64,000 bases of DNA, from the NCBI GenBank assembly GCA_943737045.1, contig CALSFV010000220.1:62001-126000 (forward strand), written 5' to 3'. A program made the position numbers and the translations under genes. Below, piece by piece: positions 28,071-61,487 of the stretch. A model generated the notes under the pieces. It worked only from the letters and a program-made list of their open reading frames with translations. It was not told where the DNA came from and ran no database searches. Source of the DNA: Parapristionchus giblindavisi (lineage: Eukaryota > Nematoda > Chromadorea > Rhabditida > Diplogasteridae). Numbering within the stretch: position 1 is the first letter of the stretch; the number at the start of each line of letters is the position of its first letter.

Positions 28071-28885
28071 CAGTTAAATGCTAAAAGTAGGTAATATTCT
28101 CTTATCATTGTATTTATAGTGTTAACCACATTCCTTCTGAAAGGGGTCATCGTCAGAAAATCATCAATAACTCATATTCAACAACTCATACATTAACTGA
28201 CTCATTGGAAAAATTCCATGAAATTTCTTTTTTTTTGCATTGAACATAAAAACCAATGACGTCAGTTATAAATGTGCACATCAATAAGGAAAATTTCTCT
28301 TTTTACAGAAGAAAGTACGACTCGACTAGAAACTGTTTCAAGGTTTAAGAAGGGGTAAATGCTTGAGACACGTAGATCAGAGAGTTGGCGACGTGGGAAC
28401 AGAGGGAAAGGGGGTTGATCGATAGAATACTTCTTGTTTTTACCAGCCACTAGCAAGGCAAGTACAAGTACATTTTATACGGACAATATTTCATTTATTT
28501 TTCAAAATTTTATACCCCCAATCTATGGAAAACTTCCATGCAGGGCATGTGAACCGCAGAAAATTCTCCGGTTAGGGATATATCCGTTCCATTACTTTAG
28601 CGAGCGCAACTCGAGTGTAGCTCGTGCTAGCTGTGAAATATCACTAACGGGTGTGTGTGTGTGTGTGAATTACTCCTTACGGTTGCCTTTCCTCGTTATT
28701 TAAATTGTAAGTTGAACATCGATTCAAAATATAAATTTTTCGATTCTAATGTTGTTTTATTTGCGTTTTTAAAAGGAGCACTTAATAAATATCTTTTATT
28801 CGACATAAAATACCAGAGAGAAATAATTTTATTTGGAAGTACAAGTGAATGAATAACATCTGACATCGAGGACGAAGTCCACGTT
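28071..28885. other. Intergenic: protease promoter and giant-gene 3' flank
   Basis: A minus-strand AATAAA lies near 28792-28797, about 90 bases past the stop of the giant gene, and could be its polyadenylation signal. A (GT)n run lies at about 28651-28667. No gene is recognised. Confidence 0.55.
28111..28118 (-). promoter_or_regulatory. TATA box of the protease gene
   Basis: TATAAATA on the minus strand, about 41 bases upstream of the ATG at 28070. Confidence 0.5.
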
Positions 28886-31800
28886 CTAACTCTTCGTAGA
28901 ACATGTGACTCTTGCATTAGCGATCGATGTCTGTACTCCTCCAATCTTTCCTGTCCAATTTCCATTATTGCACGTTAACGCACCAGTCACTTGTTTGCCT
29001 TTCTTTTTGTTTGACATGCTATCATCCTGAACATACTTGATAATTGCCCATCGGCAAATAATATTTCGACACTCGTACGCATTGCTTATAAAATTGTAAA
29101 TGACTTACAACGAGAAGCTTGCCGGAAGAGCAGGATATTTTGGAAGAAGTTATTGAAATTGGGATAGTTGAGCACGAAGAAGTAGGACACACGTCATTAT
29201 CTTTCACACCATCTTTGCATTCCGATACCGTTATGGGTGCTGCAATAGCTTTTTGCGTATAAAAGGTGAAAACCCTTATGGGGTTCAGTCTTTCCTCTAA
29301 TTCGTTGCCATTTGAACACATTTCCAAGTCAAAGCAATGTAGTCAGTTGTGTTGAGAACTCACCACAAGTGACGTATACATTAGTATTGTTGTAAGGTTT
29401 CGTTCCAACAGTTCCCGTCCAAAGGGAGTCAACGCATTTCAAATCAGTTACTGGTCCTCCTTTACAGCAGGATTGGTATGTATTTGACTGAAGATATCGA
29501 GTTAACTCGGATAATAAAATTAATTGCCCTTATAAATATAGCCAAATTAAAAAAAAATTAACCTATTTATTTGCTAATAAAATTTCATTAGTTATTTTGA
29601 CATAAAACAATAACCAAATATACTTAATGACATTTACCGCGTATAGTTGGTGCTCGGTTCCAGAGCATGTTGCTACTCCGTTTGAATCAATTGTTGGTTT
29701 TACACATTTCATTGATTTTGGGCATATTTCAATTTTTGGTATAGCAGGATAACATGACTTAGTTGTTCCTGTAATTCTTCATTAAAGGGATAGTGACCTC
29801 TCTCAATGGTCTCTTCATCGCGCACACTATTTCTCTGTTCTCTAACAACGAGAGAGCGTAGACCGATGAAGAGACCGTTGACAAAGGTTTCGGTCCCTTT
29901 AAGGTACTACCAAATCCAACAATTTAATTTGTGATGTTTTATTTAGAACCCACCACAAGTGACATATACATCAATGCTCTTGTAAGTTTGTGATCCAACT
30001 TTTCCCGTCCACATGAAGTCAACACATTGCAAATCAGTTACTGGTTGACCAGAGTAGGATTGGTTTGTAGTTGACTAAATATACCGATTTAACTCGGAGA
30101 ATCAAATAAGCACTCCGATAAAGATAGCCAAACAATTCTGAAAATTGCCTCAAAAACAGCCAGCACAAATTTAAACATAATTTCCGTGATATTTAATTAG
30201 TTATCAAAATTTCCACTAATGCTTAAAATCATTTACCGCATATAGTTGATAATCTTCTAAGCATGTAACTTCGTTCGAATCAATTTTAGGGGACATACAT
30301 GACTTTGCGTTTGGGCATATTGCGATTTTTCCTATAGCTTCATTACATGTCTTTGTTTTTCCTGCAATTCTTACATTAAGTTATTGCCATATCAAAGAAT
30401 GTTTGATTAGTACAGAACTCACCACAAGCGACATATACATCTGTACTGTTGTAAGGTTGTGATCCAACTGTACCCTTCCAAAATAAGTCAACGCATTTTA
30501 AATCAAAGGCTAGTTGTCCAGATTTCGAATTGGAAGTTGACGACTATAAATAGAGAGTTAGGTATTAAATCGATTCGATGTATTATAAAGCATCTAAATG
30601 TACATTGCACGATTATCCTGGGCTGACATATCTGGACGATTGCACAATGCATAAGTTTTGAAGGAACTATATTCACAAATTACGCATCAAAACAATTACC
30701 GCATATAGTTGTTGATCTCCATTGCAATATATTTCGGTTTTGTAAATAATAGGTTCAACACAAGTCATTGAATCGGGGCAGATCTTTTTATTCACTTGAG
30801 CGTCGGTGCAAGTGGGTTCTTCTGCAATCAGTTAGTGTGCAAACATATCAATGGGGGGGGGGGTTAAGGCAGGGCTGTGCGAAAAAAAAATTCGAAAAAA
30901 AAATTGAAAAACGAAATTTTTCGGAAACAAAATTCGAAAAATTCGAAAAATCGAAAAATATTGTATAAGAATTTCTTAATGCAATTTCTTTTGATTTCTC
31001 GCCACTTGGATGACTTACACTAGTCCCAGTTACAATATCAAGTTAAAAAACACATATTATCTAAAGTGTCTTTTTGAGAGAGTTTGGATTATTCTATAGG
31101 TAGTTCAGTTAGACAACGTATCTCAAAGAGAAGTTGCCTGACAAAATAATACATTCACAGTTGCAAAAAAATGATTAAATTATTACAAAAGTTTCCTGGA
31201 ATACACCTACAGAACTTTCAAATTATACAGAATTGATTCTCTTCTGATTCTAATCGACTCTTATTTTCGATTTTTTCGAGAAAAATTGTTCGAAAAAAGT
31301 CGAAAATCGAAAAACGAAAAATGCACAGCCATGGGTTAAGGTATATTTATAAAATTTTATAGTTTTCCATAGCTCAACTACTTTTGGAAGTGAACCGGAA
31401 CGGATCTTAAACATACCCTCCGTAGAACATGTGACACTTGCATTAACGATCGATGTCTGTACTCCTCCAATCTTTCCAGTCCAATTCCCATAGTTGCACG
31501 TTAACACACCAGTAACTTTTTTGCCTTTCTTTTCGTTTGACATGTTATCAACCTGAACATACTGGATAATTGCTCATCGAAAAATATTATTTCGCCACTC
31601 ACAGGCATAGCTTCTTAAAAAGTTGTTAATTTAATGCGCACGACTTACAACGAGAAGCTTTCCGGAATGGCAGGATATTTGCGTAGAATTAAATGAAATT
31701 GGATTAATCGAGCAAGAAGAAGTAGAACAGATGCTGTTGTCTGTCATAGGTACTTTGCATCCCGCTAATGGCGTGGGTGCTGCAATAGCTTATTGCGTAT

Positions 31801-34800
31801 AAGATCTCCATTAAGTAGGCATAATAAAATAGTTAGAAAACCTACCACAACCGACGTATACTTTTGATTTATTAAATGGAAGTGATCCAACAGTTCCCGT
31901 CCACATAGAGTTAACACATTGCAAGTCAGAGGATAGTTTACCCGATTTTGCACTGGTTTTGGATGACTAAAAATAAATTACAAGATTAAGTACATGTTAT
32001 ACTAACAAGGGGATGGTCGCAACTGGTCCTGGCCATTTGAGATGGCAATAGCATGACTACGATCAGTTTTCGATACTGATTACGAATCCTTTTTCAGAAA
32101 GTGCCTAGTCGACCTGATTTTCGAGAAAATCGGTATTGAAATTTGGCTTGTTTATTCGAAAAGTCGTGTAGTTTCCTTCACAAACTATCTGGATTGCATC
32201 GGGAAGATCCGGCAATGTAAGGTAAAGTATTGTGAGAGTTTATTGATGAGATCACCAGCCCACCCGGATGGTTTGCGCAGGAAACCACACGACTTTCCCA
32301 ATTAAAATATCGATTTCCTCGAAAATCAGGTCGATTAGGCACTTTCTGAAAAAGGATTCGTAATCAGCATCGAAAACTGATCCTAGTAATGTTACTGCCA
32401 TCTCATATGGCCAGGACCAGTTGCGACCATCCCCTTGTAAATGAACGGATATTGGAAGAGATTCCGTCAACGTTAAACGTTAAATTATCCGAATCAGTTA
32501 ACCACGATTAATCAAAACATTACCGCATAAAGTTCGTAGTTTTCAGAGCAAGTTACTCCTTTCGAATCAATCATCGGTGGAATGCAAACTGATGGTTCGG
32601 GGCATATTTCTTTTTTTGAAACAGCAGCATTACAGAGTCTATTCACCACTGTAATTATTTCTTGTGTTAACCCATTTTCAAGTCAAAGTAATATCGTCTA
32701 GGGTGTTTAGAACCAACCGCAAGTGACGTATACATCAGTACTGTTGTAATTTTGTGATCCAACTACTCCCGTCCAAAGTGAGTCAACGCATTGTAAAACA
32801 GTTACTGGTTCTCCAGAACATAATTCGTCTGTAGTTGACTGAAGATATCGAGTTAATGCGGATAATCATGAAGGTGTCATGATAAACATTGTCAATATTA
32901 TAGCCCCTACAATTTTAAGACTATTTTTTTCGAATAAAATATCATTAGTCATCAAAAAATATCCAAAATGCGAAGTAACATTCACCGCATGTAGTTGCTC
33001 AATTCCAGAGCACGTTGCTCCTTTCGAACCAATTGAAGGTGTTACACATTTCATTGATTCTGGGCATATTTCGTTTTTTGGTATAACGGTATTACATTTC
33101 TTTGTTTTCCCTGCAATTTTTGCATAAAGGTATTGCCAAATCCAACAGCATATTTAGTGATGTTTTATTTTAGAACCCACCACAAGTGACATATAGATCA
33201 GTGCTCGTGTAAGGTCGTGATCCAAGTATTCCCGTCCAAATGAAGTCAACACATTGCAAAGCAGTTAATAGTTGACCAGAGTTGGATTGGTTTGTAGTTG
33301 ACTAAATATATCGAGTTAACTTGGATAATCAAATCGCACTAGGTAAACTATTCTGAACTATTCTCAAAATATCCCAAATGGACCGCACAAATTTAAACAT
33401 ACTTTTTACGAGTAATATTTCATTTGTTATCGGTTAATAACCAATTATTCTTAATAACATTTACCGCATATATTTGGTAACCTTCCAAGCATTCAACTCC
33501 GTTCGAATCAATTCTAGGTGTAAGACATGACTTTGCGTCTGGGCATATTGTGATATTTGCAATAGGGGCATTACATGCTTTAGATTTTCCTATAATTTTT
33601 ACGTTAAAACATTTCCAAATCAAACAATATAATTCGGGATGTTTTATTATAGAACTCACCACAAGCAACATAGACATTCGGTTCGCTGTACTGACTTGAT
33701 CCAACAGTTCCCTTCCAAAGAGAACCGATACATTTCAAATTAGAGGCTAGCTGCCCAGATTTCGCATTGGGTGTGGACGACTGTAAATGGATAGTTAGGT
33801 ATCGAATCGATTCGATATATTATAAATCATCTGAATGTACAGTGCAGCCAAAAAGACACTTTTTCAACTTTTCATAACTTTTGATAAAGGGAAGCAATCA
33901 AGCTGATCTTTTGAGTCAATGTACAGAATTTATCAAGGGATACAACCATGATGTGTTGGTGTAATTAAATTAGTTCACTGTTGCATAGTAATGATTCTAT
34001 CGAAATACACTTTTTTGAAAAATTACATTTCTTTGGTGAAAGGCACTGTTCTCCTGAAACACTGTGAGAGTGTAGACAGATACTAGGGCTGCACAGTCAA
34101 ACAATCCGGAATGGCTCTGACTCCGATTTCGAGCTGTAGCTTTGTTGCAAATTTGACACCCAAAATTTATAACAGCTTCTAGATGTGCTAACGACCCGCT
34201 CTAAGTGCTGAAATGATGCTAGTGTCGTGTAATGTTTATCCCCAGCTTACGGTAGTCAAAGGTCGACATTTCTCCTCAGGGCATAAAATAAATTTTTTGA
34301 AGAGGGACTGAATTTGAGACCCTACCGTTCAAAGGGCGGGTCGTCTAAAAATATGGTTTCTGCGCAAGTAGCTTTGCAATGTATCATATATTTATTTCCC
34401 TTCTTTTGGTTTGGTTCCGATTCCTTTCAGACCCGTAGCAAAAGTTATTCTGAGGATCAAAAGTTATAAAAAGTTGAAAAAGTGTCCCATGACTTTTTGG
34501 CTACACTGTACATATCAAGAATATCCTAGGCTGACACACCTGAACGACTGGACAACGATTAATGCTTAAATAAAATTTTTTAAGGAACCATACCGCATAT
34601 AGCTGTTGATCTCCATTACAACGCACTTCGGCTGAGACACTTAAAGGTGGTACACAAGTCATTGAATCGGGGCAGATCTTGATTTTTACTTGAGCGTCGG
34701 TACAAGTGCGTTCTGGTGGCAGTGCTGCAATCAGTTAATGGGCAAAGCAACCAAAATCCAACAATTTGCTAGATGAAGAAAGATAGATTAGATTAGATTC

Positions 34801-37800
34801 AGAACTTCATCACAAGCTACATACACATGGATTTGACTAACTTTGGAGACAGGTGGCTGTGACTTTATTTTCCGAGAATGGAGTATTTTCATCAATCGTG
34901 CCTTTCCACTCTCCTTTAACACAAACGAGCTCAGTTGATCTGTGTCCAATTCCACTTTGATCCTGAGTCATTGAGGTTTATTTGACCTAAAGGAACGGGA
35001 TAAAGGACAACATACCACAATCATTATATATCCTTCAGGACATGATATACTTGTTACATTATTCTTCAGTTCATTTTCATGACAAAAATTATTAGGCTTA
35101 GTACATTGATCAAAGTCATTTGCTGTCAGAGGTGGATTGCATGGTGAACCACAAGTCACATATGCATCCAATTCATGCACTTCCTCGTTGCCACCATTAG
35201 GTTTCCACGTCCACTTTCCTTTGATGCACCTCATTACACTTCCAGACACCAGTTCTCCTTTATGGCCTGCTACCGAGCTCTATGAAAAATGTATTATATT
35301 ACAATCATTGATCAAGATGAACTCACGACATAGAGGGTCTTTCCATTAGTACAAGTTACTTCTCCATTAGTCTCAGTAACTAATTCATCATTGCAGACAT
35401 CCTCACCACAAACATCGTTGTCGTGAGTGAAAGGCGTGCACTCTGAAATATAAACAATGTAATTTTCAAAAACAACGATATAATTATATATTAAATAGCA
35501 GTAAAAAAAGAATGAACATACCTGCGATACATGCTACAGTGACGTCCTTAGATTTGAAAGATGGATCGTCTCCAACTATTCCTTTCCATCGTCCATTCAC
35601 ACAAGTCAAACCTTCTGGAGACTCCAATCCAGATCCATCATCGTTCGTTTTCGACTGAACAAATATTAGTATGTCACTTTATGTCTTTTGGTTTATGCTG
35701 ACGAACAGAGTTTAGTATATTACTTTATTTATTTTGCTTTATGTTGACTCACCACAACAAGGATCTGCCCGTTATTGCAAGTGATTTGATCGGGATATGC
35801 GGTATTGAGTGATGATATTTCACATTTCTGTGTAGCTGTACAGATGTCATCATTTTGAACAGGAGTTTTACAATTTTCTAAAATGCGTATTCATACATTA
35901 TTTATACATTTTTTTTTCATTTTCAGATTGTTCGAAAATGTCCAACCCACTTTTTAGACAGGTGGCTGTGACGTTATTTTCCGAGAATGGAGTATTTTCA
36001 TCAATCGTGCCTTTCCACTCTCCTTTAACACAAACGAGCTCAGTTGATCTGTGTCCAATTCCACTTTGATCCTGAGTCATTGAGGTTTATTTGACCTAAA
36101 GGAACGGGATAAAGGACAACATACCACAATCATTATATATCCTTCAGGACATGATATACTTGTTACATTATTCTTCAGTTCATTTTCATGACAAAAATTA
36201 TTAGGCTTAGTACATTGATCAAAGTCATTTGCTGTCAGAGGTGGATTGCATGGTGAACCACAAGTCACATATCCATCCAATTCATGCACTTCCTCGTTGC
36301 CACCATTAGGTTTCCACGTCCACTTTCCTTTGATGCACCTCATTACACTTCCAGACACCAGTTCTCCTTTATGGCCTGCTACCGAGCTCTATGAAAAATG
36401 TATTATATTACAATCATTGATCAAGATGAACTCACGACATAGAGGGTCTTTCCATTAGTACAAGTTACTTCTCCATTAGTCTCAGTAACTAATTCATCAT
36501 TGCAGACATCCTCACCACAAACATCGTTGTCGTGAGTGAAAGGCGTGCACTCTGAAATATAAACAATGTAATTTTCAAAAACAACGATATAATTATATAT
36601 TAAATAGCAGTAAAAAAAGAATGAACATACCTGCGATACATGCTACAGTGACGTCCTTAGATTTGAAAGATGGATCGTCTCCAACTATTCCTTTCCATCG
36701 TCCATTCACACAAGTCAAACCTTCTGGAGACTCCAATCCAGATCCATCATCGTTCGTTTTCGACTGAACAAATATTAGTATGTCACTTTATGTCTTTTGG
36801 TTTATGCTGACGAACAGAGTTTAGTATATTACTTTATTTATTTTGCTTTATGTTGACTCACCACAACAAGGATCTGCCCGTTATTGCAAGTGATTTGATC
36901 GGGATATGCGGTATTGAGTGATGATATTTCACATTTCTGTGTAGCTGTACAGATGTCATCATTTTGAACAGGAGTTTTACAATTTTCTAAAATGCGTATT
37001 CATACATTATTTATACATTTTGTTTTTCATTTTCAGATTGTTCGAAAATGTCCAACCCACTTTTTAGACAGGTGGCTGTGACGTTATTTTCCGAGAATGG
37101 AGTATTTTCATCAATCGTGCCTTTCCACTCTCCTTTAACACAAACGAGCTCAGTTGATCTGTGTCCAATTCCACTTTGATCCTGAGTCATTGAGGTTTAT
37201 TTGACCTAAAGGAACGGGATAAAGGACAACATACCACAATCATTATATATCCTTCAGGACATGATATACTTGTTACATTATTCTTCAGTTCATTTTCATG
37301 ACAAAAATTATTAGGCTTAGTACATTGATCAAAGTCATTTGCTGTCAGAGGTGGATTGCATGGTGAACCACAAGTCACATATCCATCCAATTCATGCACT
37401 TCCTCGTTGCCACCATTAGGTTTCCACGTCCACTTTCCTTTGATGCACCTCATTACACTTCCAGACACCAGTTCTCCTTTATGGCCTGCTACCGAGCTCT
37501 ATGAAAAATGTATTATATTACAATCATTGATCAAGATGAACTCACGACATAGAGGGTCTTTCCATTAGTACAAGTTACTTCTCCATTAGTCTCAGTAACT
37601 AATTCATCATTGCAGACATCCTCACCACAAACATCGTTGTCGTGAGTGAAAGGCGTGCACTCTGAAATATAAACAATGTAATTTTCAAAAACAACGATAT
37701 AATTATATATTAAATAGCAGTAAAAAAAGAATGAACATACCTGCGATACATGCTACAGTGACGTCCTTAGATTTGAAAGATGGATCGTCTCCAACTATTC

Positions 37801-40800
37801 CTTTCCATCGTCCATTCACACAAGTCAAACCTTCTGGAGACTCCAATCCAGATCCATCATCGTTCGTTTTCGACTGAACAAATATTAGTATGTCACTTTA
37901 TGTCTTTTGGTTTATGCTGACGAACAGAGTTTAGTATATTACTTTATTTATTTTGCTTTATGTTGACTCACCACAACAAGGATCTGCCCGTTATTGCAAG
38001 TGATTTGATCGGGATATGCGGTATTGAGTGATGATATTTCACATTTCTGTGTAGCTGTACAGATGTCATCATTTTGAACAGGAGTTTTACAATTTTCTAA
38101 AATGCGTATTCATACATTATTTATACATTTTTTTTTCATTTTCAGATTGTTCGAAAATGTCCAACCCACTTTTTAGACAGGTGGCTGTGACGTTATTTTC
38201 CGAGAATGGAGTATTTTCATCAATCGTGCCTTTCCACTCTCCTTTAACACAAACGAGCTCAGTTGATCTGTGTCCAATTCCACTTTGATCCTGAGTCATT
38301 GAGGTTTATTTGACCTAAAGGAACGGGATAAAGGACAACATACCACAATCATTATATATCCTTCAGTACATGATATACTTGTTACATTATTCTTCAGTTC
38401 ATTTTCATGACAAAAATTATTAGGCTTAGTACATTGATCAAAGTCATTTGCTGTCAGAGGTGGATTGCATGGTGAACCACAAGTCACATATGCATCCAAT
38501 TCATGCACTTCCTCGTTGCCACCATTAGGTTTCCACGTCCACTTTCCTTTGATGCACCTCATTACACTTCCAGACACCAGTTCTCCTTTATGGCCTGCTA
38601 CCGAGCTCTATGAAAAATGTATTATATTACAATCATTGATCAAGATGAACTCACGACATAGAGGGTCTTTCCATTAGTACAAGTTACTTCTCCATTAGTC
38701 TCAGTAACTAATTCATCATTGCAGACATCCTCACCACAAACATCGTTGTCGTGAGTGAAAGGCGTGCACTCTGAAATATAAACAATGTAATTTTCAAAAA
38801 CAACGATATAATTATATATTAAATAGCAGTAAAAAAAGAATGAACATACCTGCGATACATGCTACAGTGACGTCCTTAGATTTGAAAGATGGATCGTCTC
38901 CAACTATTCCTTTCCATCGTCCATTCACACAAGTCAAACCTTCTGGAGACTCCAATCCAGATCCATCATCGTTCGTTTTCGACTGAACAAATATTAGTAT
39001 GTCACTTTATGTCTTTTGGTTTATGCTGACGAACAGAGTTTAGTATATTACTTTATTTATTTTGCTTTATGTTGACTCACCACAACAAGGATCTGCCCGT
39101 TATTGCAAGTGATTTGATCGGGATATGCGGTATTGAGTGATGATATTTCACATTTCTGTGTAGCTGTACAGATGTCATCATTTTGAACAGGAGTTTTACA
39201 ATTTTCTAAAATGCGTATTCATACATTATTTATACATTTTGTTTTTCATTTTCAGATTGTTCGAAAATGTCCAACCCACTTTTTAGACAGGTGGCTGTGA
39301 CGTTATTTTCCGAGAATGGAGTATTTTCATCAATCGTGCCTTTCCACTCTCCTTTAACACAAACGAGCTCAGTTGATCTGTGTCCAATTCCACTTTGATC
39401 CTGAGTCATTGAGGTTTATTTGACCTAAAGGAACGGGATAAAGGACAACATACCACAATCATTATATATCCTTCAGTACATGATATACTTGTTACATTAT
39501 TCTTCAGTTCATTTTCATGACAAAAATTATTAGGCTTAGTACATTGATCAAAGTCATTTGCTGTCAGAGGTGGATTGCATGGTGAACCACAAGTCACATA
39601 TGCATCCAATTCATGCACTTCCTCGTTGCCACCATTAGGTTTCCACGTCCACTTTCCTTTGATGCACCTCATTACACTTCCAGACACCAGTTCTCCTTTA
39701 TGGCCTGCTACCGAGCTCTATGAAAAATGTATTATATTACAATCATTGATCAAGATGAACTCACGACATAGAGGGTCTTTCCATTAGTACAAGTTACTTC
39801 TCCATTAGTCTCAGTAACTAATTCATCATTGCAGACATCCTCACCACAAACATCGTTGTCGTGAGTGAAAGGCGTGCACTCTGAAATATAAACAATGTAA
39901 TTTTCAAAAACAACGATATAATTATATATTAAATAGCAGTAAAAAAAGAATGAACATACCTGCGATACATGCTACAGTGACGTCCTTAGATTTGAAAGAT
40001 GGATCGTCTTCAACTATTCCTTTCCATCGTCCATTCACACAAGTCAAACCTTCTGGAGACTCCAATCCAGATCCATCATCGTTCGTTTTCGACTGAACAA
40101 ATATTAGTATGTCACTTTATGTCTTTTGGTTTATGCTGACGAACAGAGTTTAGTATATTACTTTATTTATTTTGCTTTATGTTGACTCACCACAACAAGG
40201 ATCTGCCCGTTATTGCAAGTGATTTGATCGGGATATGCGGTATTGAGTGATGATATTTCACATTTCTGTGTAGCTGTACAGATGTCATCATTTTGAACAG
40301 GAGTTTTACAATTTTCTAAAATGCGTATTCATACATTATTTATACATTTTTTTTTCATTTTCAGATTGTTCGAAAATGTCCAACCCACTTTTTAGACAGG
40401 TGGCTGTGACGTTATTTTCCGAGAATGGAGTATTTTCATCAATCGTGCCTTTCCACTCTCCTTTAACACAAACGAGCTCAGTTGATCTGTGTCCAATTCC
40501 ACTTTGATCCTGAGTCATTGAGGTTTATTTGACCTAAAGGAACGGGATAAAGGACAACATACCACAATCATTATATATCCTTCAGTACATGATATACTTG
40601 TTACATTATTCTTCAGTTCATTTTCATGACAAAAATTATTAGGCTTAGTACATTGATCAAAGTCATTTGCTGTCAGAGGTGGATTGCATGGTGAACCACA
40701 AGTCACATATGCATCCAATTCATGCACTTCCTCGTTGCCACCATTAGGTTTCCACGTCCACTTTCCTTTGATGCACCTCATTACACTTCCAGACACCAGT

Positions 40801-43800
40801 TCTCCTTTATGGCCTGCTACCGAGCTCTATGAAAAATGTATTATATTACAATCATTGATCAAGATGAACTCACGACATAGAGGGTCTTTCCATTAGTACA
40901 AGTTACTTCTCCATTAGTCTCAGTAACTAATTCATCATTGCAGACATCCTCACCACAAACATCGTTGTCGTGAGTGAAAGGCGTGCACTCTGAAATATAA
41001 ACAATGTAATTTTCAAAAACAACGATATAATTATATATTAAATAGCAGTAAAAAAAGAATGAACATACCTGCGATACATGCTACAGTGACGTCCTTAGAT
41101 TTGAAAGATGGATCGTCTTCAACTATTCCTTTCCATCGTCCATTCACACAAGTCAAACCTTCTGGAGACTCCAATCCAGATCCATCATCGTTCGTTTTCG
41201 ACTGAACAAATATTAGTATGTCACTTTATGTCTTTTGGTTTATGCTGACGAACAGAGTTTAGTATATTACTTTATTTATTTTGCTTTATGTTGACTCACC
41301 ACAACAAGGATCTGCCCGTTATTGCAAGTGATTTGATCGGGATATGCGGTATTGAGTGATGATATTTCACATTTCTGTGTAGCTGTACAGATGTCATCAT
41401 TTTGAACAGGAGTTTTACAATTTTCTAAAATGCGTATTCATACATTATTTATACATTTTGTTTTTCATTTTCAGATTGTTCGAAAATGTCCAACCCACTT
41501 TTTAGACAGGTGGCTGTGACGTTATTTTCCGAGAATGGAGTATTTTCATCAATCGTGCCTTTCCACTCTCCTTTAACACAAACGAGCTCAGTTGATCTGT
41601 GTCCAATTCCACTTTGATCCTGAGTCATTGAGGTTTATTTGACCTAAAGGAACGGGATAAAGGACAACATACCACAATCATTATATATCCTTCAGTACAT
41701 GATATACTTGTTACATTATTCTTCAGTTCATTTTCATGACAAAAATTATTAGGCTTAGTACATTGATCAAAGTCATTTGCTGTCAGAGGTGGATTGCATG
41801 GTGAACCACAAGTCACATATGCATCCAATTCATGCACTTCCTCGTTGCCACCATTAGGTTTCCACGTCCACTTTCCTTTGATGCACCTCATTACACTTCC
41901 AGACACCAGTTCTCCTTTATGGCCTGCTACCGAGCTCTATGAAAAATGTATTATATTACAATCATTGATCAAGATGAACTCACGACATAGAGGGTCTTTC
42001 CATTAGTACAAGTTACTTCTCCATTAGTCTCAGTAACTAATTCATCATTGCAGACATCCTCACCACAAACATCGTTGTCGTGAGTGAAAGGCGTGCACTC
42101 TGAAATATAAACAATGTAATTTTCAAAAACAACGATATAATTATATATTAAATAGCAGTAAAAAAAGAATGAACATACCTGCGATACATGCTACAGTGAC
42201 GTCCTTAGATTTGAAAGATGGATCGTCTCCAACTATTCCTTTCCATCGTCCATTCACACAAGTCAAACCTTCTGGAGACTCCAATCCAGATCCATCATCG
42301 TTCGTTTTCGACTGAACAAATATTAGTATGTCACTTTATGTCTTTTGGTTTATGCTGACGAACAGAGTTTAGTATATTACTTTATTTATTTTGCTTTATG
42401 TTGACTCACCACAACAAGGATCTGCCCGTTATTGCAAGTGATTTGATCGGGATATGCGGTATTGAGTGATGATATTTCACATTTCTGTGTAGCTGTACAG
42501 ATGTCATCATTTTGAACAGGAGTTTTACAATTTTCTAAAATGCGTATTCATACATTATTTATACATTTTGTTTTTCATTTTCAGATTGTTCGAAAATGTC
42601 CAACCCACTTTTTAGACAGGTGGCTGTGACGTTATTTTCCGAGAATGGAGTATTTTCATCAATCGTGCCTTTCCACTCTCCTTTAACACAAACGAGCTCA
42701 GTTGATCTGTGTCCAATTCCACTTTGATCCTGAGTCATTGAGGTTTATTTGACCTAAAGGAACGGGATAAAGGACAACATACCACAATCATTATATATCC
42801 TTCAGTACATGATATACTTGTTACATTATTCTTCAGTTCATTTTCATGACAAAAATTATTAGGCTTAGTACATTGATCAAAGTCATTTGCTGTCAGAGGT
42901 GGATTGCATGGTGAACCACAAGTCACATATGCATCCAATTCATGCACTTCCTCGTTGCCACCATTAGGTTTCCACGTCCACTTTCCTTTGATGCACCTCA
43001 TTACACTTCCAGACACCAGTTCTCCTTTATGGCCTGCTACCGAGCTCTATGAAAAATGTATTATATTACAATCATTGATCAAGATGAACTCACGACATAG
43101 AGGGTCTTTCCATTAGTACAAGTTACTTCTCCATTAGTCTCAGTAACTAATTCATCATTGCAGACATCCTCACCACAAACATCGTTGTCGTGAGTGAAAG
43201 GCGTGCACTCTGAAATATAAACAATGTAATTTTCAAAAACAACGATATAATTATATATTAAATAGCAGTAAAAAAGAATGAACATACCTGCGATACATGC
43301 TACAGTGACGTCCTTAGATTTGAAAGATGGATCGTCTCCAACTATTCCTTTCCATCGTCCATTCACACAAGTCAAACCTTCTGGAGACTCCAATCCAGAT
43401 CCATCATCGTTCGTTTTCGACTGAACAAATATTAGTATGTCACTTTATGTCTTTTGGTTTATGCTGACGAACAGAGTTTAGTATATTACTTTATTTATTT
43501 TGCTTTATGTTGACTCACCACAACAAGGATCTGCCCGTTATTGCAAGTGATTTGATCGGGATATGCGGTATTGAGTGATGATATTTCACATTTCTGTGTA
43601 GCTGTACAGATGTCATCATTTTGAACAGGAGTTTTACAATTTTCTAAAATGCGTATTCATACATTATTTATACATTTTGTTTTTCATTTTCAGATTGTTC
43701 GAAAATGTCCAACCCACTTTTTAGACAGGTGGCTGTGACGTTATTTTCCGAGAATGGAGTATTTTCATCAATCGTGCCTTTCCACTCTCCTTTAACACAA

Positions 43801-46800
43801 ACGAGCTCAGTTGATCTGTGTCCAATTCCACTTTGATCCTGAGTCATTGAGGTTTATTTGACCTAAAGGAACGGGATAAAGGACAACATACCACAATCAT
43901 TATATATCCTTCAGTACATGATATACTTGTTACATTATTCTTCAGTTCATTTTCATGACAAAAATTATTAGGCTTAGTACATTGATCAAAGTCATTTGCT
44001 GTCAGAGGTGGATTGCATGGTGAACCACAAGTCACATATGCATCCAATTCATGCACTTCCTCGTTGCCACCATTAGGTTTCCACGTCCACTTTCCTTTGA
44101 TGCACCTCATTACACTTCCAGACACCAGTTCTCCTTTATGGCCTGCTACCGAGCTCTATGAAAAATGTATTATATTACAATCATTGATCAAGATGAACTC
44201 ACGACATAGAGGGTCTTTCCATTAGTACAAGTTACTTCTCCATTAGTCTCAGTAACTAATTCATCATTGCAGACATCCTCACCACAAACATCGTTGTCGT
44301 GAGTGAAAGGCGTGCACTCTGAAATATAAACAATGTAATTTTCAAAAACAACGATATAATTATATATTAAATAGCAGTAAAAAAAGAATGAACATACCTG
44401 CGATACATGCTACAGTGACGTCCTTAGATTTGAAAGATGGATCGTCTCCAACTATTCCTTTCCATCGTCCATTCACACAAGTCAAACCTTCTGGAGACTC
44501 CAATCCAGATCCATCATCGTTCGTTTTCGACTGAACAAATATTAGTATGTCACTTTATGTCTTTTGGTTTATGCTGACGAACAGAGTTTAGTATATTACT
44601 TTATTTATTTTGCTTTATGTTGACTCACCACAACAAGGATCTGCCCGTTATTGCAAGTGATTTGATCGGGATATGCGGTATTGAGTGATGATATTTCACA
44701 TTTCTGTGTAGCTGTACAGATGTCATCATTTTGAACAGGAGTTTTACAATTTTCTAAAATGCGTATTCATACATTATTTATACATTTTTTTTTCATTTTC
44801 AGATTGTTCGAAAATGTCCAACCCACTTTTTAGACAGGTGGCTGTGACGTTATTTTCCGAGAATGGAGTATTTTCATCAATCGTGCCTTTCCACTCTCCT
44901 TTAACACAAACGAGCTCAGTTGATCTGTGTCCAATTCCACTTTGATCCTGAGTCATTGAGGTTTATTTGACCTAAAGGAACGGGATAAAGGACAACATAC
45001 CACAATCATTATATATCCTTCAGGACATGATATACTTGTTACATTATTCTTCAGTTCATTTTCATGACAAAAATTATTAGGCTTAGTACATTGATCAAAG
45101 TCATTTGCTGGCAGAGGTGGTTTGCATGGTGAACCACAAGTCACATATGCATCCAATTCATGCACTTCCTCGTTGCCACCATTAGGTTTCCACGTCCACT
45201 TTCCTTTGATGCACCTCATTACACTTCCAGACACCAGTTCTCCTTTATGGCCTGCTACCGAGCTCTATGAAAAATGTATTATATTACAATCATTGATCAA
45301 GATGAACTCACGACATAGAGGGTCTTTCCATTAGTACAAGTTACTTCTCCATTAGTCTCAGTAACTAATTCATCATTGCAGACATCCTCACCACAAACAT
45401 CGTTGTCGTGAGTGAAAGGCGTGCACTCTGAAATATAAACAATGTAATTTTCAAAAACAACGATATAATTATATATTAAATAGCAGTAAAAAAAGAATGA
45501 ACATACCTGCGATACATGCTACAGTGACGTCCTTAGATTTGAAAGATGGATCGTCTCCAACTATTCCTTTCCATCGTCCATTCACACAAGTCAAACCTTC
45601 TGGAGACTCCAATCCAGATCCATCATCGTTCGTTTTCGACTGAACAAATATTAGTATGTCACTTTATGTCTTTTGGTTTATGCTGACGAACAGAGTTTAG
45701 TATATTACTTTATTTATTTTGCTTTATGTTGACTCACCACAACAAGGATCTGCCCGTTATTGCAAGTGATTTGATCGGGATATGCGGTATTGAGTGATGA
45801 TATTTCACATTTCTGTGTAGCTGTACAGATGTCATCATTTTGAACAGGAGTTTTACAATTTTCTAAAATGCGTATTCATACATTATTTATACATTTTTTT
45901 TTCATTTTCAGATTGTTCGAAAATGTCCAACCCACTTTTTAGACAGGTGGCTGTGACGTTATTTTCCGAGAATGGAGTATTTTCATCAATCGTGCCTTTC
46001 CACTCTCCTTTAACACAAACGAGCTCAGTTGATCTGTGTCCAATTCCACTTTGATCCTGAGTCATTGAGGTTTATTTGACCTAAAGGAACGGGATAAAGG
46101 ACAACATACCACAATCATTATATATCCTTCAGGACATGATATACTTGTTACATTATTCTTCAGTTCATTTTCATGACAAAAATTATTAGGCTTAGTACAT
46201 TGATCAAAGTCATTTGCTGTCAGAGGTGGATTGCATGGTGAACCACAAGTCACATATCCATCCAATTCATGCACTTCCTCGTTGCCACCATTAGGTTTCC
46301 ACGTCCACTTTCCTTTGATGCACCTCATTACACTTCCAGACACCAGTTCTCCTTTATGGCCTGCTACCGAGCTCTATGAAAAATGTATTATATTACAATC
46401 ATTGATCAAGATGAACTCACGACATAGAGGGTCTTTCCATTAGTACAAGTTACTTCTCCATTAGTCTCAGTAACTAATTCATCATTGCAGACATCCTCAC
46501 CACAAACATCGTTGTCGTGAGTGAAAGGCGTGCACTCTGAAATATAAACAATGTAATTTTCAAAAACAACGATATAATTATATATTAAATAGCAGTAAAA
46601 AAAGAATGAACATACCTGCGATACATGCTACAGTGACGTCCTTAGATTTGAAAGATGGATCGTCTCCAACTATTCCTTTCCATCGTCCATTCACACAAGT
46701 CAAACCTTCTGGAGACTCCAATCCAGATCCATCATCGTTCGTTTTCGACTGAACAAATATTAGTATGTCACTTTATGTCTTTTGGTTTATGCTGACGAAC

Positions 46801-49800
46801 AGAGTTTAGTATATTACTTTATTTATTTTGCTTTATGTTGACTCACCACAACAAGGATCTGCCCGTTATTGCAAGTGATTTGATCGGGATATGCGGTATT
46901 GAGTGATGATATTTCACATTTCTGTGTAGCTGTACAGATGTCATCATTTTGAACAGGAGTTTTACAATTTTCTAAAATGCGTATTCATACATTATTAATA
47001 CATTTTTTTTTCATTTTCAGATTGTTCGAAAATGTCCAACCCACTTTTTAGACAGGTGGCTGTGACGTTATTTTCCGAGAATGGAGTATTTTCATCAATC
47101 GTGCCTTTCCACTCTCCTTTAACACAAACGAGCTCAGTTGATCTGTGTCCAATTCCACTTTGATCCTGAGTCATTGAGGTTTATTTGACCTAAAGGAACG
47201 GGATAAAGGACAACATACCACAATCATTATATATCCTTCAGGACATGATATACTTGTTACATTATTCTTCAGTTCATTTTCATGACAAAAATTATTAGGC
47301 TTAGTACATTGATCAAAGTCATTTGCTGGCAGAGGTGGATTGCATGGTGAACCACAAGTCACATATGCATCCAATTCATGCACTTCCTCGTTACCACCAT
47401 TAGGTTTCCACGTCCACTTTCCTTTGATGCACCTCATTACACTTCCAGACACCAGTTCTCCTTTATGGCCTGCTACCGAGCTCTATGAAAAATGTATTAT
47501 ATTACAATCATTGATCAAGATGAACTCACGACATAGAGGGTCTTTCCATTAGTACAAGTTACTTCTCCATTAGTCTCAGTAACTAATTCATCATTGCAGA
47601 CATCCTCACCACAAACATCGTTGTCGTGAGTGAAAGGCGTGCACTCTGAAATATAAACAATGTAATTTTCAAAAACAACGATATAATTATATATTAAATA
47701 GCAGTAAAAAAAGAATGAACATACCTGCGATACATGCTACAGTGACGTCCTTAGATTTGAAAGATGGATCATCTCCAACTATTCCTTTCCATCGTCCATT
47801 CACACAAGTCAAACCTTCTGGAGACTCCAATCCAGATCCATCATCGTTCGTTTTCGACTGAACAAATATTAGTATGTCACTTTATGTCTTTTGGTTTATG
47901 CTGACGAACAGAGTTTAGTATATTACTTTATTTATTTTGCTTTATGTTGACTCACCACAACAAGGATCTGCCCGTTATTGCAAGTGATTTGATCGGGATA
48001 TGCGGTATTGAGTGATGATATTTCACATTTCTGTGTAGCTGTACAGATGTCATCATTTTGAACAGGAGTTTTACAATTTTCTAAAATGCGTATTCATACA
48101 TTATTTATACATTTTTTTTCATTTTCAGATTGTTCGAAAATGTCCAACCCACTTTTTAGACAGGTGGCTGTGACGTTATTTTCCGAGAATGGAGTATTTT
48201 CATCAATCGTGCCTTTCCACTCTCCTTTAACACAAACGAGCTCAGTTGATCTGTGTCCAATTCCACTTTGATCCTGAGTCATTGAGGTTTATTTGACCTA
48301 AAGGAACGGGATAAAGGACAACATACCACAATCATTATATATCCTTCAGGACATGATATACTTGTTACATTATTCTTCAGTTCATTTTCATGACAAAAAT
48401 TATTAGGCTTAGTACATTGATCAAAGTCATTTGCTGGCAGAGGTGGATTGCATGGTGAACCACAAGTCACATATGCATCCAATTCATGCACTTCCTCGTT
48501 ACCACCATTAGGTTTCCACGTCCACTTTCCTTTGATGCACCTCATTACACTTCCAGACACCAGTTCTCCTTTATGGCCTGCTACCGAGCTCTATGAAAAA
48601 TGTATTATATTACAATCATTGATCAAGATGAACTCACGACATAGAGGGTCTTTCCATTAGTACAAGTTACTTCTCCATTAGTCTCAGTAACTAATTCATC
48701 ATTGCAGACATCCTCACCACAAACATCGTTGTCGTGAGTGAAAGGCGTGCACTCTGAAATATAAACAATGTAATTTTCAAAAACAACGATATAATTATAT
48801 ATTAAATAGCAGTAAAAAAAGAATGAACATACCTGCGATACATGCTACAGTGACGTCCTTAGATTTGAAAGATGGATCGTCTCCAACTATTCCTTTCCAT
48901 CGTCCATTCACACAAGTCAAACCTTCTGGAGACTCCAATCCAGATCCATCATCGTTCGTTTTCGACTGAACAAATATTAGTATGTCACTTTATGTCTTTT
49001 GGTTTATGCTGACGAACAGAGTTTAGTATATTACTTTATTTATTTTGCTTTATGTTGACTCACCACAACAAGGATCTGCCCGTTATTGCAAGTGATTTGA
49101 TCGGGATATGCGGTATTGAGTGATGATATTTCACATTTCTGTGTAGCTGTACAGATGTCATCATTTTGAACAGGAGTTTTACAATTTTCTAAAATGCGTA
49201 TTCATACATTATTTATACATTTTTTTTCATTTTCAGATTGTTCGAAAATGTCCAACCCACTTTTTAGACAGGTGGCTGTGACGTTATTTTCCGAGAATGG
49301 AGTATTTTCATCAATCGTGCCTTTCCACTCTCCTTTAACACAAACGAGCTCAGTTGATCTGTGTCCAATTCCACTTTGATCCTGAGTCATTGAGGTTTAT
49401 TTGACCTAAAGGAACGGGATAAAGGACAACATACCACAATCATTATATATCCTTCAGGACATGATATACTTGTTACATTATTCTTCAGTTCATTTTCATG
49501 ACAAAAATGATTAGGCTTAGTACATTGATCAAAGTCATTTGCTGGCAGAGGTGGATTGCATGGTGAACCGCAAGTTACATATGCATTCAATTCATGCACT
49601 GCCCCGCTGCCCTTAGATTTCCACTTCCATTTTCCATCGACGCACTTCACTCCACTTCTAGAGGCGTTCACTCCTTGTTCATTGCCTTCCGAGTTCTATT
49701 AGAATGGTGTAATCTTTGTAACATTGTTCAGCTTCAACTCACGACATAAAGCGTCTTTCCCGAAGGACAAGTTGGGTTTCTATATATCTCAATAACACTT

Positions 49801-52800
49801 TCTTCATTGCAGACATCCTCGCCACAAACAGTATTGTCAAGAATAAAGTCCTCGCATGCTGTAATAAAAGAATATTGTTTATCTCTATCATCGTCCTTCA
49901 TCATGATCGAATGTCTTGTTTTGTACCTGCTATACATGTAACAGTGATATCCGCAGATTGGAAATTTGAATTTATTCCAACCTTTCCTTTCCATACCCCA
50001 TTTATACAATTCAATCCATCTGGAGACTTCGAGCCTGACCCATTATCGCTCGTTGTCGACTGTGAAAATAGTTCTTTTCAAAATTTGTCCTTGCAAAATG
50101 ATGTTTTTAATGATTTATATTCACTCACCACAACAAGGATCTGATTGTCTTTGCATGTGATTCTATCGGGATTTGAATCATCCAACGCTTTAGTCTCGCA
50201 ATGCTGGGTAGATTTACAGATGTCATCATTTGGTGTAGGAGTTGAGCAGATATCTAAAACTGCACGTTTTGGTTTTATCATTAAAATGAAACTCACTTTT
50301 GAAGCTTGCGACAACAAACGATTTACAAAGAATATTATATCTTAAAAAAGCTTTCCGTAAAGTTTACCTGGAAATGGGAGGCAAGTTACGTAAGCATCGG
50401 TCGAACTGAAAGGTATTCCTCCAGCCATCGTTCCTTTCCATTGTCCATTGTAGCAAGTGAGGGTTCCCACAATTAATTCACCCGGAGTGGCTTGGGGAGA
50501 CTGCAATAAAAGTTTATTTCACCTTCGAAAAAATAGGATGAACATATAGAATGTTTTAGCACTACTATATTTCAGCAATCATCTTTGATCTATTACTTCA
50601 AAAAGCTTTAAAATATTATTTTAACTAATAATAATAAATATTATATAATATTAATTAATATAATTAATATTGCAATACAGCGTAGAGTTTGGATCCGTCA
50701 CATTCGATATGAATGGTGTTCTCGAAGATCTTATCAATGTCGCACTCTTGACCAACGGGACAGACGTCATTGGTTCTGTGTGCTGGCTTACAGGTGAGAT
50801 CTTAATTTCAAGAATTAATTACATAATTATCTATCGATATTGGATGGTATTCATTCTATCTAAACTCAAATGTAACGAACGTATAATGAAATAGTTTACC
50901 TGGTCCAGCATAGCAAGCAATACTAGGATATCTCTGACCGTCAACCACCCATGGATTTGTTGAATCACCGGCCTCTGCACATTCGGCTTTCTAAATTTAA
51001 TCTAATAAATTAAATTTAACTCAATTGTCAGTTTGTGCCGATTTTCCTCCACTGAGTACTTCTTCAATTAATTGAGTCATCAGTGCCTATTCACTGTAAA
51101 TTAATGAAATGAATCGCGTTTGACCTTCATAGCTCTCTTCTCATATTGCGTTCCCGTCCACACATAGATGTTGCCATCGGAACATTGAGTGAATGGGCAA
51201 GTATGCTATAATTATGATATTTATACAAATAATAACAAGAAAAGATATTTGGACAAAAATGCATAATAAAAGGAACAAGAGATGCAAATATCCTGATAGT
51301 CAAAGATAATTCAAGTGCACAAAATAATGCAAAATGTACTTGATGGTTCGGTTCCGATAGTCCTGGAGGATCAACATAATAAGTTTGCTTATGCGAATTG
51401 TCCGTTTTGAAACTACATTGGTCGTCGCAAGCTGAAAAACAATGTCAACAAAAATATTACACGGTAATGGAACGTACGATAGCCACAGAATGCAGTCAAC
51501 TGCCAAAAGCCAATCCCGACCCACTTTCCTTTGATGCACTTTTGGATCGGGTCTATCACACCCTGCAAAAATAAGGTAATTTTAAAAAAACTGATGAAAA
51601 GTTTTCATTTCATGTTAATATTTAATATGAAGAATGCTCGTTATTTTTTGTTAAACCTGTTGTTTAGATAATATTTTATTCTTACCTTCGTGTCGTGAAG
51701 TTCGTAAATTTCCTGATTACTGCACCCAACAGTCTTAGGATCGAGCTCTATTTCAATAGGAATTGATCCATGACAGTAATAGTTCGATGGACACGGCACA
51801 ATCGACCAACCACATTCATTGTTCTCCGCTTAAATAGTGTCAACATTTTATGAACAATATGCTGCGTAGGCAAAAATAATATTGTAAAGAGAAATAGATC
51901 AAAACACTTGTGTTGTTTCATAAATATCGTCTGCTTGCAATAATGAGCATAGAGTGGAAAGGATCGTATTTGTATACTATTTTCACAGATAACTTACAAA
52001 GGCAAGCATATACTCGGTTCTCATCAAATCCTTCTATCGACCATGTCTTCTCCTCGGCCAGACATGTAGCTGTTGAAACGTTTTCGTTCTTCCATTCTGT
52101 CGAGCCCTCTGAAGGGTTTTCGATCACTTATTGAACATTACATTACTGATGGACAATACAACATTCATTTTAAAGTTATGTGCTTAGTTGTAGAATGCAG
52201 AAAAAACTATCGATATTATTGTACGTGATTTTGGAAGAGATAGTTATTTCGTAATTTAAGAAAAATATGTTATTTATGTTTATTCATATTCTCACGTTCT
52301 CTCGACGCAATCATTCCATCCGGACAGACAACTGAAGTGGTTGAAGATCCAAGAGGTAGTGGATTACAATCAAACAGTCTCTCATCCTCATCATCTATAC
52401 ATCCCTTAGAAGCTGTCGATATAGATATCATCGTAGGGCATCCACCTGGCGATTTTATCTTATCTCATCACATTACATTCATTTTCTATTGATTCTGCGA
52501 ATCATTTACTCAATTTAACATATTGGCTATAAAAAAGTGATGCGTATTATGAGTTATTGCTTTTTCGTTAGTTAAAATATATCTCATTATTGAAACGTCA
52601 AATTATTAATTAAGTGCTTAATTTTGTAGCATAAAATGTTTCAGAAAATTGCAACCGATTACCTGAACAGCAGTTCCCTGGAGGTCCTTGAGGTCCCGGC
52701 TCTCCAGGGTCTCCTTTGTCTCCTTTCATTCCAGGATCGCCCTTATCTCCTTTTATTCCTTGAAGTCCTGGCGGTCCCGGAATACCGTCTTCGCCAGCCT

Positions 52801-53563
52801 CTCCTTTTTCTCCCTCAGGACCTGGCGGACCTCGGACGCCTGGGTTTCCCGGACGGCCAGGTGTACCGGGTGTTCCATCGGTACCGGGTGATCCATTTGA
52901 TCCTGGTGGTCCGGCAGGTCCTCGTGGTCCTTTGGGCCCAGGTCGACCTCTACAGCAACTCGGATACTTTGCCCCATTCTGGCATGGACAAGAAGTTGGT
53001 GGTCTGGTCGGGTAGTAACTTGATGGTGTCCTCTCTGAACAACAACACACATGGAATCTATAACTGCAAATATTAATTAACTCACTTTTCAAGCAGATAA
53101 CGTTATGAGCGGTGTATGCGAAGGAGCGACCGTATTTCCATTGTCCCGTGGAGCAGACAAGACGAGTGACCGGCTGTCCACTCACGTAGAGGACTCCATA
53201 AGGATCGGCGCATTTCAATCTAATATACGAACAGCAAAGTTCACCTTAGGACCATGGTTAACTCACGAATCACAATCTTTGCCTGATTTTCCATTGGTAA
53301 TTCGGAATTTTTGATTGGCGCATATCGTCAGATCGTTTCGATTGTATGGGCGATTTCTGGCATCAACTTGCGGATGAGCACAACGACGGCATCCTATGAG
53401 TAGTTTTTCTTTTCGAAATCCATGACTGATTGCTGTATCGGTCTCTAATTAATGTAAATCGTGTCTAACCTGCGAGTAAATCCAAACATGGAGTTGCATC
53501 AATTATACTCACTAGAGCAAGTAAAAGCAGTAGAATGAGAAGTGCGCGCCTTGGTAAGCGCAT
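28886..53563 (-). CDS. Giant secreted collagen/six-cysteine modular protein, about 4,900 residues
   Basis: About 100 exons keep frame from ATG 53563 to TAG 28886. The order is: signal peptide ([20 protein letters not shown]), a Cys domain shared with the 197-residue neighbour, a 30-triplet collagen helix, several unique Cys-rich exons, then about 50 six-cysteine modules. 5' exons: 53563-53470, 53393-53267, 53219-53086, 53034-52663, 52445-52296, 52108-51998, 51828-51686, 51562-51478, 51431-51340, 51205-51125, 50990-50900, 50782-50679, 50500-50368, 50253-50129, 50059-49927, 49858-49743 and 49695-49435. Then come the 1.1 kb array units and 18 tail exons. Each module runs C-x7-9-C-x3-5-C-x12-15-C-xxG-xx[LI]-x-V, a phase-0 intron, then C-xxG-x-W-[KT]-G...C. 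Between modules the introns are phase 1. The second half recalls sushi/CCP domains, but the module has extra cysteines and may relate to the nematode C6 family. It is presumably extracellular or cuticular. No TM segment was seen. Confidence 0.75.
29786..29898. mobile_element. 113 bp inverted-repeat element, TTAA duplication
   Basis: TTAA flanks both ends (29782-29785 and 29899-29902). The ends are AGGGATAG and its approximate complement GGTCCCT. Inner arms pair through CAATGGTCTCTTCATCG and CGATGAAGAGACCGTTG. TTAA duplications with CCC-type ends are characteristic of piggyBac-derived MITEs. It lies in an intron of the giant gene. Confidence 0.75.
30873..31330. mobile_element. Inverted-repeat element with cgaaaaa-rich ends
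   Basis: The outer ends GGCTGTGCG and TGCACAGCC are inverted, followed inward by repetitive TTCGAAAAA sequence on both sides. The interior has no coding capacity. The target duplication is not clear, so the borders are approximate. Confidence 0.6.
32006..32437. mobile_element. 432 bp inverted-repeat element, TAA duplication (copy 2)
   Basis: Same length and ends as the element at 15975-16406, with TAA at 32003-32005 and 32438-32440. The copies are nearly identical, so transposition was recent. It lies in a giant-gene intron. Confidence 0.85.
33840..34508. mobile_element. 669 bp Tc1-like non-autonomous element
   Basis: The ends CAGTGCAGCCAAAAAG and CTTTTTGGCTACACTG are inverted repeats of about 45 bases and resemble Tc1 ends, which start CAGTG with a CCAAAAAG core. 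A TA dinucleotide flanks both sides (33838-33839 and 34509-34510). No transposase frame is seen. It lies in a giant-gene intron. Confidence 0.85.
34841..49600 (-). repeat. Tandem array, 13 near-identical 1.1 kb coding units
   Basis: The unit is 1,108-1,110 bases, repeated about 13.3 times. First-exon 5' ends lie at 48590, 47482, 46373, 45264, 44155, 43046, 41936, 40826, 39717, 38607, 37498, 36388 and 35279. One unit has five exons, for example 48590-48327, 48273-48153, 48080-47956, 47857-47725 and 47645-47530, totalling 759 coding bases (253 residues, three modules). The sum is divisible by three, so copy number can change without breaking the frame. Copies differ at only a few bases: an Ala/Gly site, two Pro/Thr sites, a Gly/Glu site, one Asn/Lys, and a G within an intronic T run. 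Both array edges fall inside exons, where the unit is fused to diverged sequence. Confidence 0.95.
52663..53034 (-). other. Collagen exon of the giant gene
   Basis: This single 372-base exon encodes [18 protein letters not shown], then thirty uninterrupted Gly-X-Y triplets rich in Pro and in charged KGDKGDP-type triplets, then GNCCSG. Cysteine pairs bound the helix on both sides, as in nematode cuticle collagens, where they cross-link trimers. A trimer of three giant chains is therefore expected. The exon is entered in phase 1 and left in phase 1, so it could be inserted or lost without shifting frame. Confidence 0.9.
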
Positions 53564-54756
53564 TCTGAATGTGACTCAACGATTGTAAAACGGCTAAGTT
53601 AATTCGATGAACAAGAAAATGAACTGAGATGACTAAATCTGCAGTCTGTTCCGACTTATATAGGGAGTTCAAATGCCAAATGAATGATTCCGTTCATTAA
53701 GAGATCAGACATGAAGGAAATCGATTAGTTCCTGGTAAAAGGTCGACTTTGGACGATCGAAGCAAAAAAAACGGAAAGCAAAAAAACGAACATTTTTTTA
53801 AATTAAAGTTTTGCGTTTGTATTCGTTTTTTTCCAAAATATCCGATATTTTTAGCAGAATACAGAGAATTAAAAACCTCAAATAAATAAACGATATACAA
53901 TTCCATGATGCGGTACTGCATTGCGAGATTTATAGCTCTGAAATTAAAAAAAAGGTTGTCTTTTGTCTTGTTCATGACGTTGTTCATTTTCGTTTACGTG
54001 CTCTACAAAATTCCATTCTGATCCAGTAAATTATCATTTCGATAGTGTTTTTTCAAGTACTTCATTTTTAAGGATCAGTTTGTATTATACTCTAATTGTC
54101 TTATGTTGCCACAGTTGCGACATTAGTATTTTATGTGCACTTCACCCTATTTGTATTTGTTTTCCGCCACTGTCACCACATAAATAAATATTATTATTAT
54201 TATAGGGTGTCCGCATAGTCTTTCCGTTCTGACATCTTGTCTTCGAAATATCAATTATCATCGACTATTCCCGATATGTTTAAAGCTCACTATGTGCATT
54301 GAAAGTACAACTTTCAACGCATGTATAGAGTGCCCATCCGATTTGCATACTTGGCTCTCTCATTTTCTCTTTGTAATTTACCCCAATTACCATATAATAT
54401 AAACAATATTCGACATGCTTATCGTGGCGGGAGTCACTTACGCCAACTCAAGGTTCTTCTTCATTAACGTTCTCTTTAAAATTCTTAGGGCTCGGCTTTC
54501 CAGTTTCTAACCAATCTCTTACCCATCTCTCCTATGATTCCTCCATTATTCGTTATGCTTTCTGTAGTCTGTATGTAACTTTTATGGTCCAGTATATTAC
54601 CCATGATCTTGTCAAGCTTATCACTACAATATAGAAGGGAATCTCTACAACTGATCTTTGATTCGTCTCCTTTCTCTTCTCTCTCTCTCCATTCACCATT
54701 GATGAAGAATGAAACTCTGCTTCCCTAGTGAGACCGAGAGGCCAATTCTCTATTGA
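53564..54756. other. Divergent promoter region, giant gene and SXP-like gene A
   Basis: The giant gene and SXP-like gene A are transcribed away from each other here. Near 54203 a fragment AGGGTGTCCGCATAGTCTTT resembles a mariner-type terminal repeat, but no partner was found. An (ATT)n run precedes it. No other gene is recognised. Confidence 0.5.
53655..53662 (-). promoter_or_regulatory. TATA box of the giant gene
   Basis: TATATAAG on the minus strand, about 92 bases upstream of the ATG at 53563. Confidence 0.55.
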
Positions 54757-54844: not shown

Positions 54845-54856
54845 TCTATCATTCAG
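54845..54856 (+). promoter_or_regulatory. Likely trans-splice acceptor, gene A
   Basis: TCTATCATTCAG just before the ATG, with the TATA box about 92 bases upstream. This is where a spliced-leader site would lie. Equivalent sites end at 56516 (B), 58338 (C) and 61472 (D). A 5' UTR intron is the alternative. Confidence 0.5.
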
Positions 54857-54865
54857 AAACTAATA

Positions 54866-56435: not shown

Positions 56436-56524
56436 CTTACAAAATATATTGACAACCATCAGCATTTATCGTTTTCCTTGTTCCTTCCGAATTACTAATT
56501 GTCAATCATATATCAGAAAACATC

Positions 56525-58172: not shown

Positions 58173-58347
58173 CTGAACCAATTTGCCTGATAACCATTAT
58201 CTCTTATCTTTTCTCTTCTGAACTAATGTTCAATAGCAAGAAAAGAGACGAGGATAAGGTTCTACAATTTCCACATTCTCGTATTGTTTCGTTTATTTTT
58301 TTCAACTTTAAGTCGTATTTATATCCTGCTGCTTTCAGAAACTAATA

Positions 58348-61384: not shown

Positions 61385-61487
61385 TCGATATATGATTCAG
61401 TGAGAATAACGTCCTCATTTCATTTACTCCTTTGCATTCCCTTAGTAACTCAAAATATTATCGCCATTTCAGAACCAATCCCTCAAA

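Follow-up and report, generated by a model that had tools for sequence, protein, structure and literature searches.

The minus-strand locus set out in Table 1 is strongly supported as one gene, whose predicted product runs from a signal peptide through a cysteine-rich domain and a collagen helix into a long string of cysteine modules. The window, that is, the whole 64,000-nucleotide stretch analysed here, had been read in a first-pass annotation as holding one frame from signal peptide to stop across phase-keeping junctions, about 50 six-cysteine modules, and the order secreted cysteine domain, short collagen helix, module string. These statements hold in the spliced model. Its 101 exons, joined by script, form a single frame of 4880 residues with a sole stop at the end; the 100 introns are all GT...AG, with compatible phases at all 100 junctions; there are 52 regular modules; and the minus-strand model returns the same order of parts for a presumably secreted product. 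Beyond the annotation, the analysis reveals that 39 of the 52 modules' worth of sequence forms a near-identical array of 13 units, and that the N-terminal cysteine domain (hereafter the N-domain) has small relatives.

The exon structure of the gene is regular. Intron lengths range from 46 to 813 bp, and intron phases alternate regularly between phase 0 (55 of 100) and phase 1 (44 of 100), with a single intron in phase 2. The frame of the model is open in all 47 distinct exon sequences, and the two alternative frames are open in 9 and 2 of them; the 47 of 47 is in part a product of model building, since an open frame was one of the criteria in choosing splice sites. An alternative donor for exon 1 was rejected as leaving an intron of 25 bp, which is too short; an upstream donor in the proper phase gives one of 64 bp. 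The product computed from the model has a mass of about 525 kDa and 43 N-x-S/T sites; Thr makes up 9.5% of its residues, Ser 7.7% and Cys 7.1%, and inspection of the 4880 residues by eye reveals no Ser/Thr-rich block of the mucin type. Upstream of the start codon lies TATATAAG, which we take to be TATA-box-like. An acceptor-like TTCAG is found closely upstream of the ATG, and trans-splicing of the gene at this site is possible. The SL1 22-mer, counted by exact matching, has 351 copies in the genome (80 forward, 271 reverse) against none for the reversed control, and marks the genome as that of a nematode; the Rfam SL1 model matched nowhere, controls included.

Table 1. Positions of the giant gene, its parts and the relatives of its N-domain (window coordinates unless a contig is given)
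Feature	Position	Strand	Remarks
TATA-box-like TATATAAG	53655..53662	minus	99 nt 5' of ATG; putative function
Whole gene	53563 to 28886	minus	ATG at 53563, TAG ending at 28886
Exon 1: start codon and predicted signal peptide	53509..53563	minus	presumably secreted
Exons 2-3: N-domain (looks like a diverged module; related to small secreted-looking genes)	53086..53444	minus	alignment and profile comparison
Exon 4: collagen helix, 31 Gly-X-Y triplets without a break (residues 152-244), flanked by CC on each side	52663..53034	minus	
Exons 5-11: Cys modules of divergent sequence, about three	50900..52445	minus	module count by eye
Exons 12-16: regular modules 1, 2 and A half of 3	49743..50800	minus	
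Self-similar tandem region	34840..49830	minus	self-comparison, period ~1109 bp
Modules 44-52	28886..34724	minus	
AATAAA poly(A)-signal-like site	28828..28833	minus	53 nt past stop
Small secreted-looking gene, about two N-domain-like repeats	24793..25803	minus	splicing by eye; ~3 kb from giant gene
N-domain relatives	two at C320; C220:774767-775051; window 25255-25446		genome search with N-domain

Several other elements share the window. One intron of the giant gene contains a 437-bp element (32002-32438) that is 93% identical to a second copy at 15971-16407; with its inverted arms of about 142 bp, the element is similar to a short inverted-repeat transposon. A large palindrome of about 2.2 kb occupies 11472-13689, with 92% identity to its reverse complement. 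Adjoining the giant gene, the plus strand encodes small Lys/Glu-rich proteins in tandem (54852-55263, 56513-56927 and 58334-58739), with DNA 89-93% identical, and a related member at 61449-62462; three frames of this family were scanned and gave no Pfam match over cut-off. Possible serine-protease exons lie on the minus strand just downstream of the giant gene (26688-28073), where the frame 26688-26873 gives a weak Trypsin match below cut-off (E 0.0017) and the frame 27507-28073 gives no Pfam match.

The collagen assignment of exon 4 is clear: the frame holding it matches PF01391 at E 3.1e-18 (65.7 bits against a cut-off of 27.2), and within the first 30 triplets Pro occupies the Y position 14 times and the X position 9 times. 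The N-domain that precedes it gives no match in Pfam, NCBIfam or PDB. When aligned with four relatives (4 of the 5 rows spliced by eye), it displays eight invariant columns in the pattern C-x2-C ... DC ... C ... C ... W ... C. The profile built from this alignment can be aligned to the module profile at an hhalign probability of 76.6% (E 2.1e-5). From this alignment and profile match, the N-domain looks like a divergent module.

The regular modules extend from residue 498 to the end of the protein and comprise 22 distinct sequences. Exactly six cysteines are present in 50 of the 52, one module having seven and another eight, and all 52 end in a Cys...Trp...Cys pattern in which the Trp follows a Cys by 2-4 residues and precedes the last Cys. 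The six cysteines and one Trp are invariant across 15 aligned modules of the 22 distinct ones. Two exons normally encode a module: the A half carries four cysteines and the B half two, a phase 0 intron separates the halves, and the introns between modules are in phase 1. The fold predicted for one contiguous exon, computed with no alignment, has a pLDDT of 45.6 and is not usable.

The greater part of the module string is a tandem array. Between 49381 and 34963 lie 13 complete head-to-tail units of 1108-1110 bp, which hold 39 of the 52 modules' worth of sequence, from the B half of module 4 through the A half of module 43. Each unit amounts to three modules in five exons, one B half and the next A half sharing a single exon. 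Tandem Repeats Finder, limited to periods of up to 500, did not report the array. Only 11 of 1110 columns vary among the units, seven coding and four intronic, and all three indel columns are intronic; five of the seven variable coding columns alter an amino acid. Units differ pairwise by a mean of 3.3 columns and at most by 7, variants are shared in blocks, and splice sites and frame are kept in all 13. Such scarcity of variable columns indicates that the modules of the array were copied from three originals very recently, or have been homogenised not long ago.

Modules 44, 45, 46 and 48 pair with modules 49, 50, 51 and 52 at 67-69% amino acid identity, a correspondence that points to an older block duplication. 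Over 334 codons, modules 44-46 and 48 differ from modules 49-52 by a dN of 0.199 and a dS of 0.314 (single pairs 0.38 to 1.23), values that would fit weak constraint only.

The module appears to be confined to this gene. The five 3' modules find 24 matches in the genome and one array reading frame finds 14, all of them within the giant gene; the 5' 3.7 kb of the gene finds, apart from itself, 13 weak hits (66%), each of which falls within the array of this gene. Exon-by-exon searches of the 251-Mb genome, in which the best candidates were scored, found no second gene with the module; distant copies could be missed, because the five-module search did not recover the N-domain relatives. The N-domain, in turn, finds four other places with weak E-values of 7.7e-5 to 0.010. 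Two adjacent small secreted-looking N-domain genes lie at about 5346-7500 of locus L024 (G000:C320:88001-97500), and at 1048-2790 of locus L025 (G000:C220:773801-782000) a relative is continued by a lengthy open frame that encodes acidic repeats of Pro, Glu and Thr. Among the 148 collagen matches listed (best 150 of 1092 candidates scored), none falls in a small N-domain gene. The giant gene has probably grown from a small secreted ancestor by gaining the collagen exon.

Searches of known families give the module no name. Fifteen of the 22 distinct modules, spliced, produced no match over cut-off in Pfam or NCBIfam. Sub-threshold matches to Kelch_2 (E 0.0036 and 0.0071), to EGF_Hmr-1 (E 0.0076, in 1 of 15 modules) and to NCBIfam WING-49 (E 0.021, in 2 of 15) are not believed, and PDB returned two matches at chance level only (E 0.83 and 0.84). 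In a protein collection that includes animal proteins, residues 255-830 drew 3123 candidates with none at E <= 0.01, and a four-module profile drew 1799 with none at E <= 10; these searches cover proteins of 0.55-1.75 times the query length that share exact words, and relatives may be missed. For the N-domain with the collagen, 8000 entries were scored and 2768 of them matched. The best 120 listed are collagens with nothing like the modules; the named ones are mostly MARCO or C1q-domain proteins, and no nematode is named among them. These matches reflect Gly-X-Y composition. The module is apparently an undescribed cysteine-rich building block.

How such a protein might function can be proposed from its layout. 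We favour, with moderate confidence, a secreted protein of about 4880 residues whose collagen joins three chains carrying module arms, whose arms are lengthened by unequal exchange, and which belongs to an extracellular layer as one of its structural, multivalent constituents. The collagen segment, with Cys pairs at both ends, would most likely effect the joining, and each chain would bear a long arm of modules held by disulphides. With a helix of 31 triplets bounded by CC on each side, a fibre or net assembled from trimers with three long arms, as the first-pass annotation proposed, is plausible. The layer could be the cuticle surface, a precuticle, or a mucus-like or luminal coat. Unequal exchange, taking place between in-frame units of three modules each, may be what lengthens the arms; an array that grows or shrinks by complete in-frame units lets the arms vary in length while the protein stays intact, and such free length change is expected where length counts for more than the precise sequence. 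A further reaching version, of a lineage-specific giant protein with a collagen clamp and three arms of undescribed modules, whose length evolves and perhaps varies between individuals with the number of in-frame five-exon repeats within the single gene, is put forward tentatively and is rather doubtful as a whole.

The structural layer is ranked as most likely, and its main rival is multivalent recognition. Short collagens occur also in receptors that are not structural, and the apparently weak constraint on modules 44-52, together with the amino acid changes at five of the seven variable coding columns of the array, would count against a structural role. The same gene could encode a soluble or surface recognition protein on the collectin or MARCO principle, its modules weakly binding microbes or glycans. 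The names among the best 120 matches listed for the N-domain and collagen lean this way, the N-domain has small secreted relatives, and amplified near-identical units would raise avidity. But those names follow from Gly-X-Y composition, the searches brought no known binding domain over cut-off, and fifty-plus near-identical units would exceed the usual needs of avidity; we hold this reading to be unlikely, if worth keeping in view.

Less probable still is a locus that yields several transcripts, from separate genes or as major isoforms, such that the 4880-residue chain is rarely or never made. In its favour, three introns of 557, 595 and 813 bp are far above the remaining ones in length, and that of 595 bp sits between modules 48 and 49. 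The 813- and 557-bp introns, however, each split the two halves of one module, phases remain compatible over 100 junctions, and, when a simple rule is applied to the whole protein, no Met other than the first has a signal-like hydrophobic stretch behind it. The size of the array might also be partly a matter of assembly, or the array a selectively neutral, satellite-like expansion that the protein tolerates. Units almost identical down to their introns are hard for assemblers and would fit homogenisation with little coding constraint. Yet every unit retains its splice sites and frame, and variants are shared in blocks between copies. In the same assembly, SL1 also forms a long array whose unit measures about 1.17 kb (G000:C145:26449-82876, listed part), so kb-scale arrays are not generally collapsed. 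We regard this last explanation as very improbable.

Should the structural reading hold, nematode matrix biology would gain an undescribed extracellular module and a domain order unreported in the literature searched, and the locus would be a clear example of how a very large coding gene grows by whole multi-exon units. Copy number across isolates could then show the rate of length change and any visible effect on the cuticle or surface. The product may be a rapidly growing protein of an extracellular fibre or net.

Comparison with known systems places the protein apart from each of them. The small N-domain genes (L024, L025 and window 25803-24793) share a C-x2-C ... C ... Trp ... Cys domain like that of giant-protein residues ~37-120, but have few domains where the giant gene has dozens of modules. 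C6 and sushi modules, named at first pass as families for a profile comparison, are likewise small extracellular cysteine-rich repeats, and the sushi domain also has a late Cys...Trp...Cys. The profile searches support neither: in exon-by-exon scans of the genome PF01681 (C6) gave 7 matches, all below cut-off, and PF00084 (sushi) gave 19, with none of either in the locus, and 15 of the 22 distinct modules, spliced, hit neither family. A literature search at abstract level, with most subscription papers outside it, found no protein of such kind. MARCO, collectins and other short-collagen proteins similarly couple a short collagen rod to cysteine-rich domains; they end, however, in one small C-terminal domain (SRCR or C1q, in Pfam terms), whereas the giant protein bears dozens of modules of another kind.

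A parallel within nematodes is with the cuticle collagens, from which the first-pass annotation had already set the protein apart. Passages of PMC11304992 describe these as mostly shorter than 350 residues, with interrupted Gly-X-Y and mostly three Cys clusters, and report PCSK sites for the example collagens SQT-3 and DPY-17. The furin/PCSK-like motif, searched as R-X-[KR]-R, is absent from all 4880 residues of the giant protein. The likeness lies in nematode Gly-X-Y helices with adjoining Cys, which in cuticle collagens are thought to help in both joining and stabilising the chains (passages of PMC11304992) and which here stand as CC on both sides. The distinction drawn from these passages holds in size and in helix structure as well: the giant protein, at 4880 residues, carries one uninterrupted helix and places 52 cysteine modules behind it.
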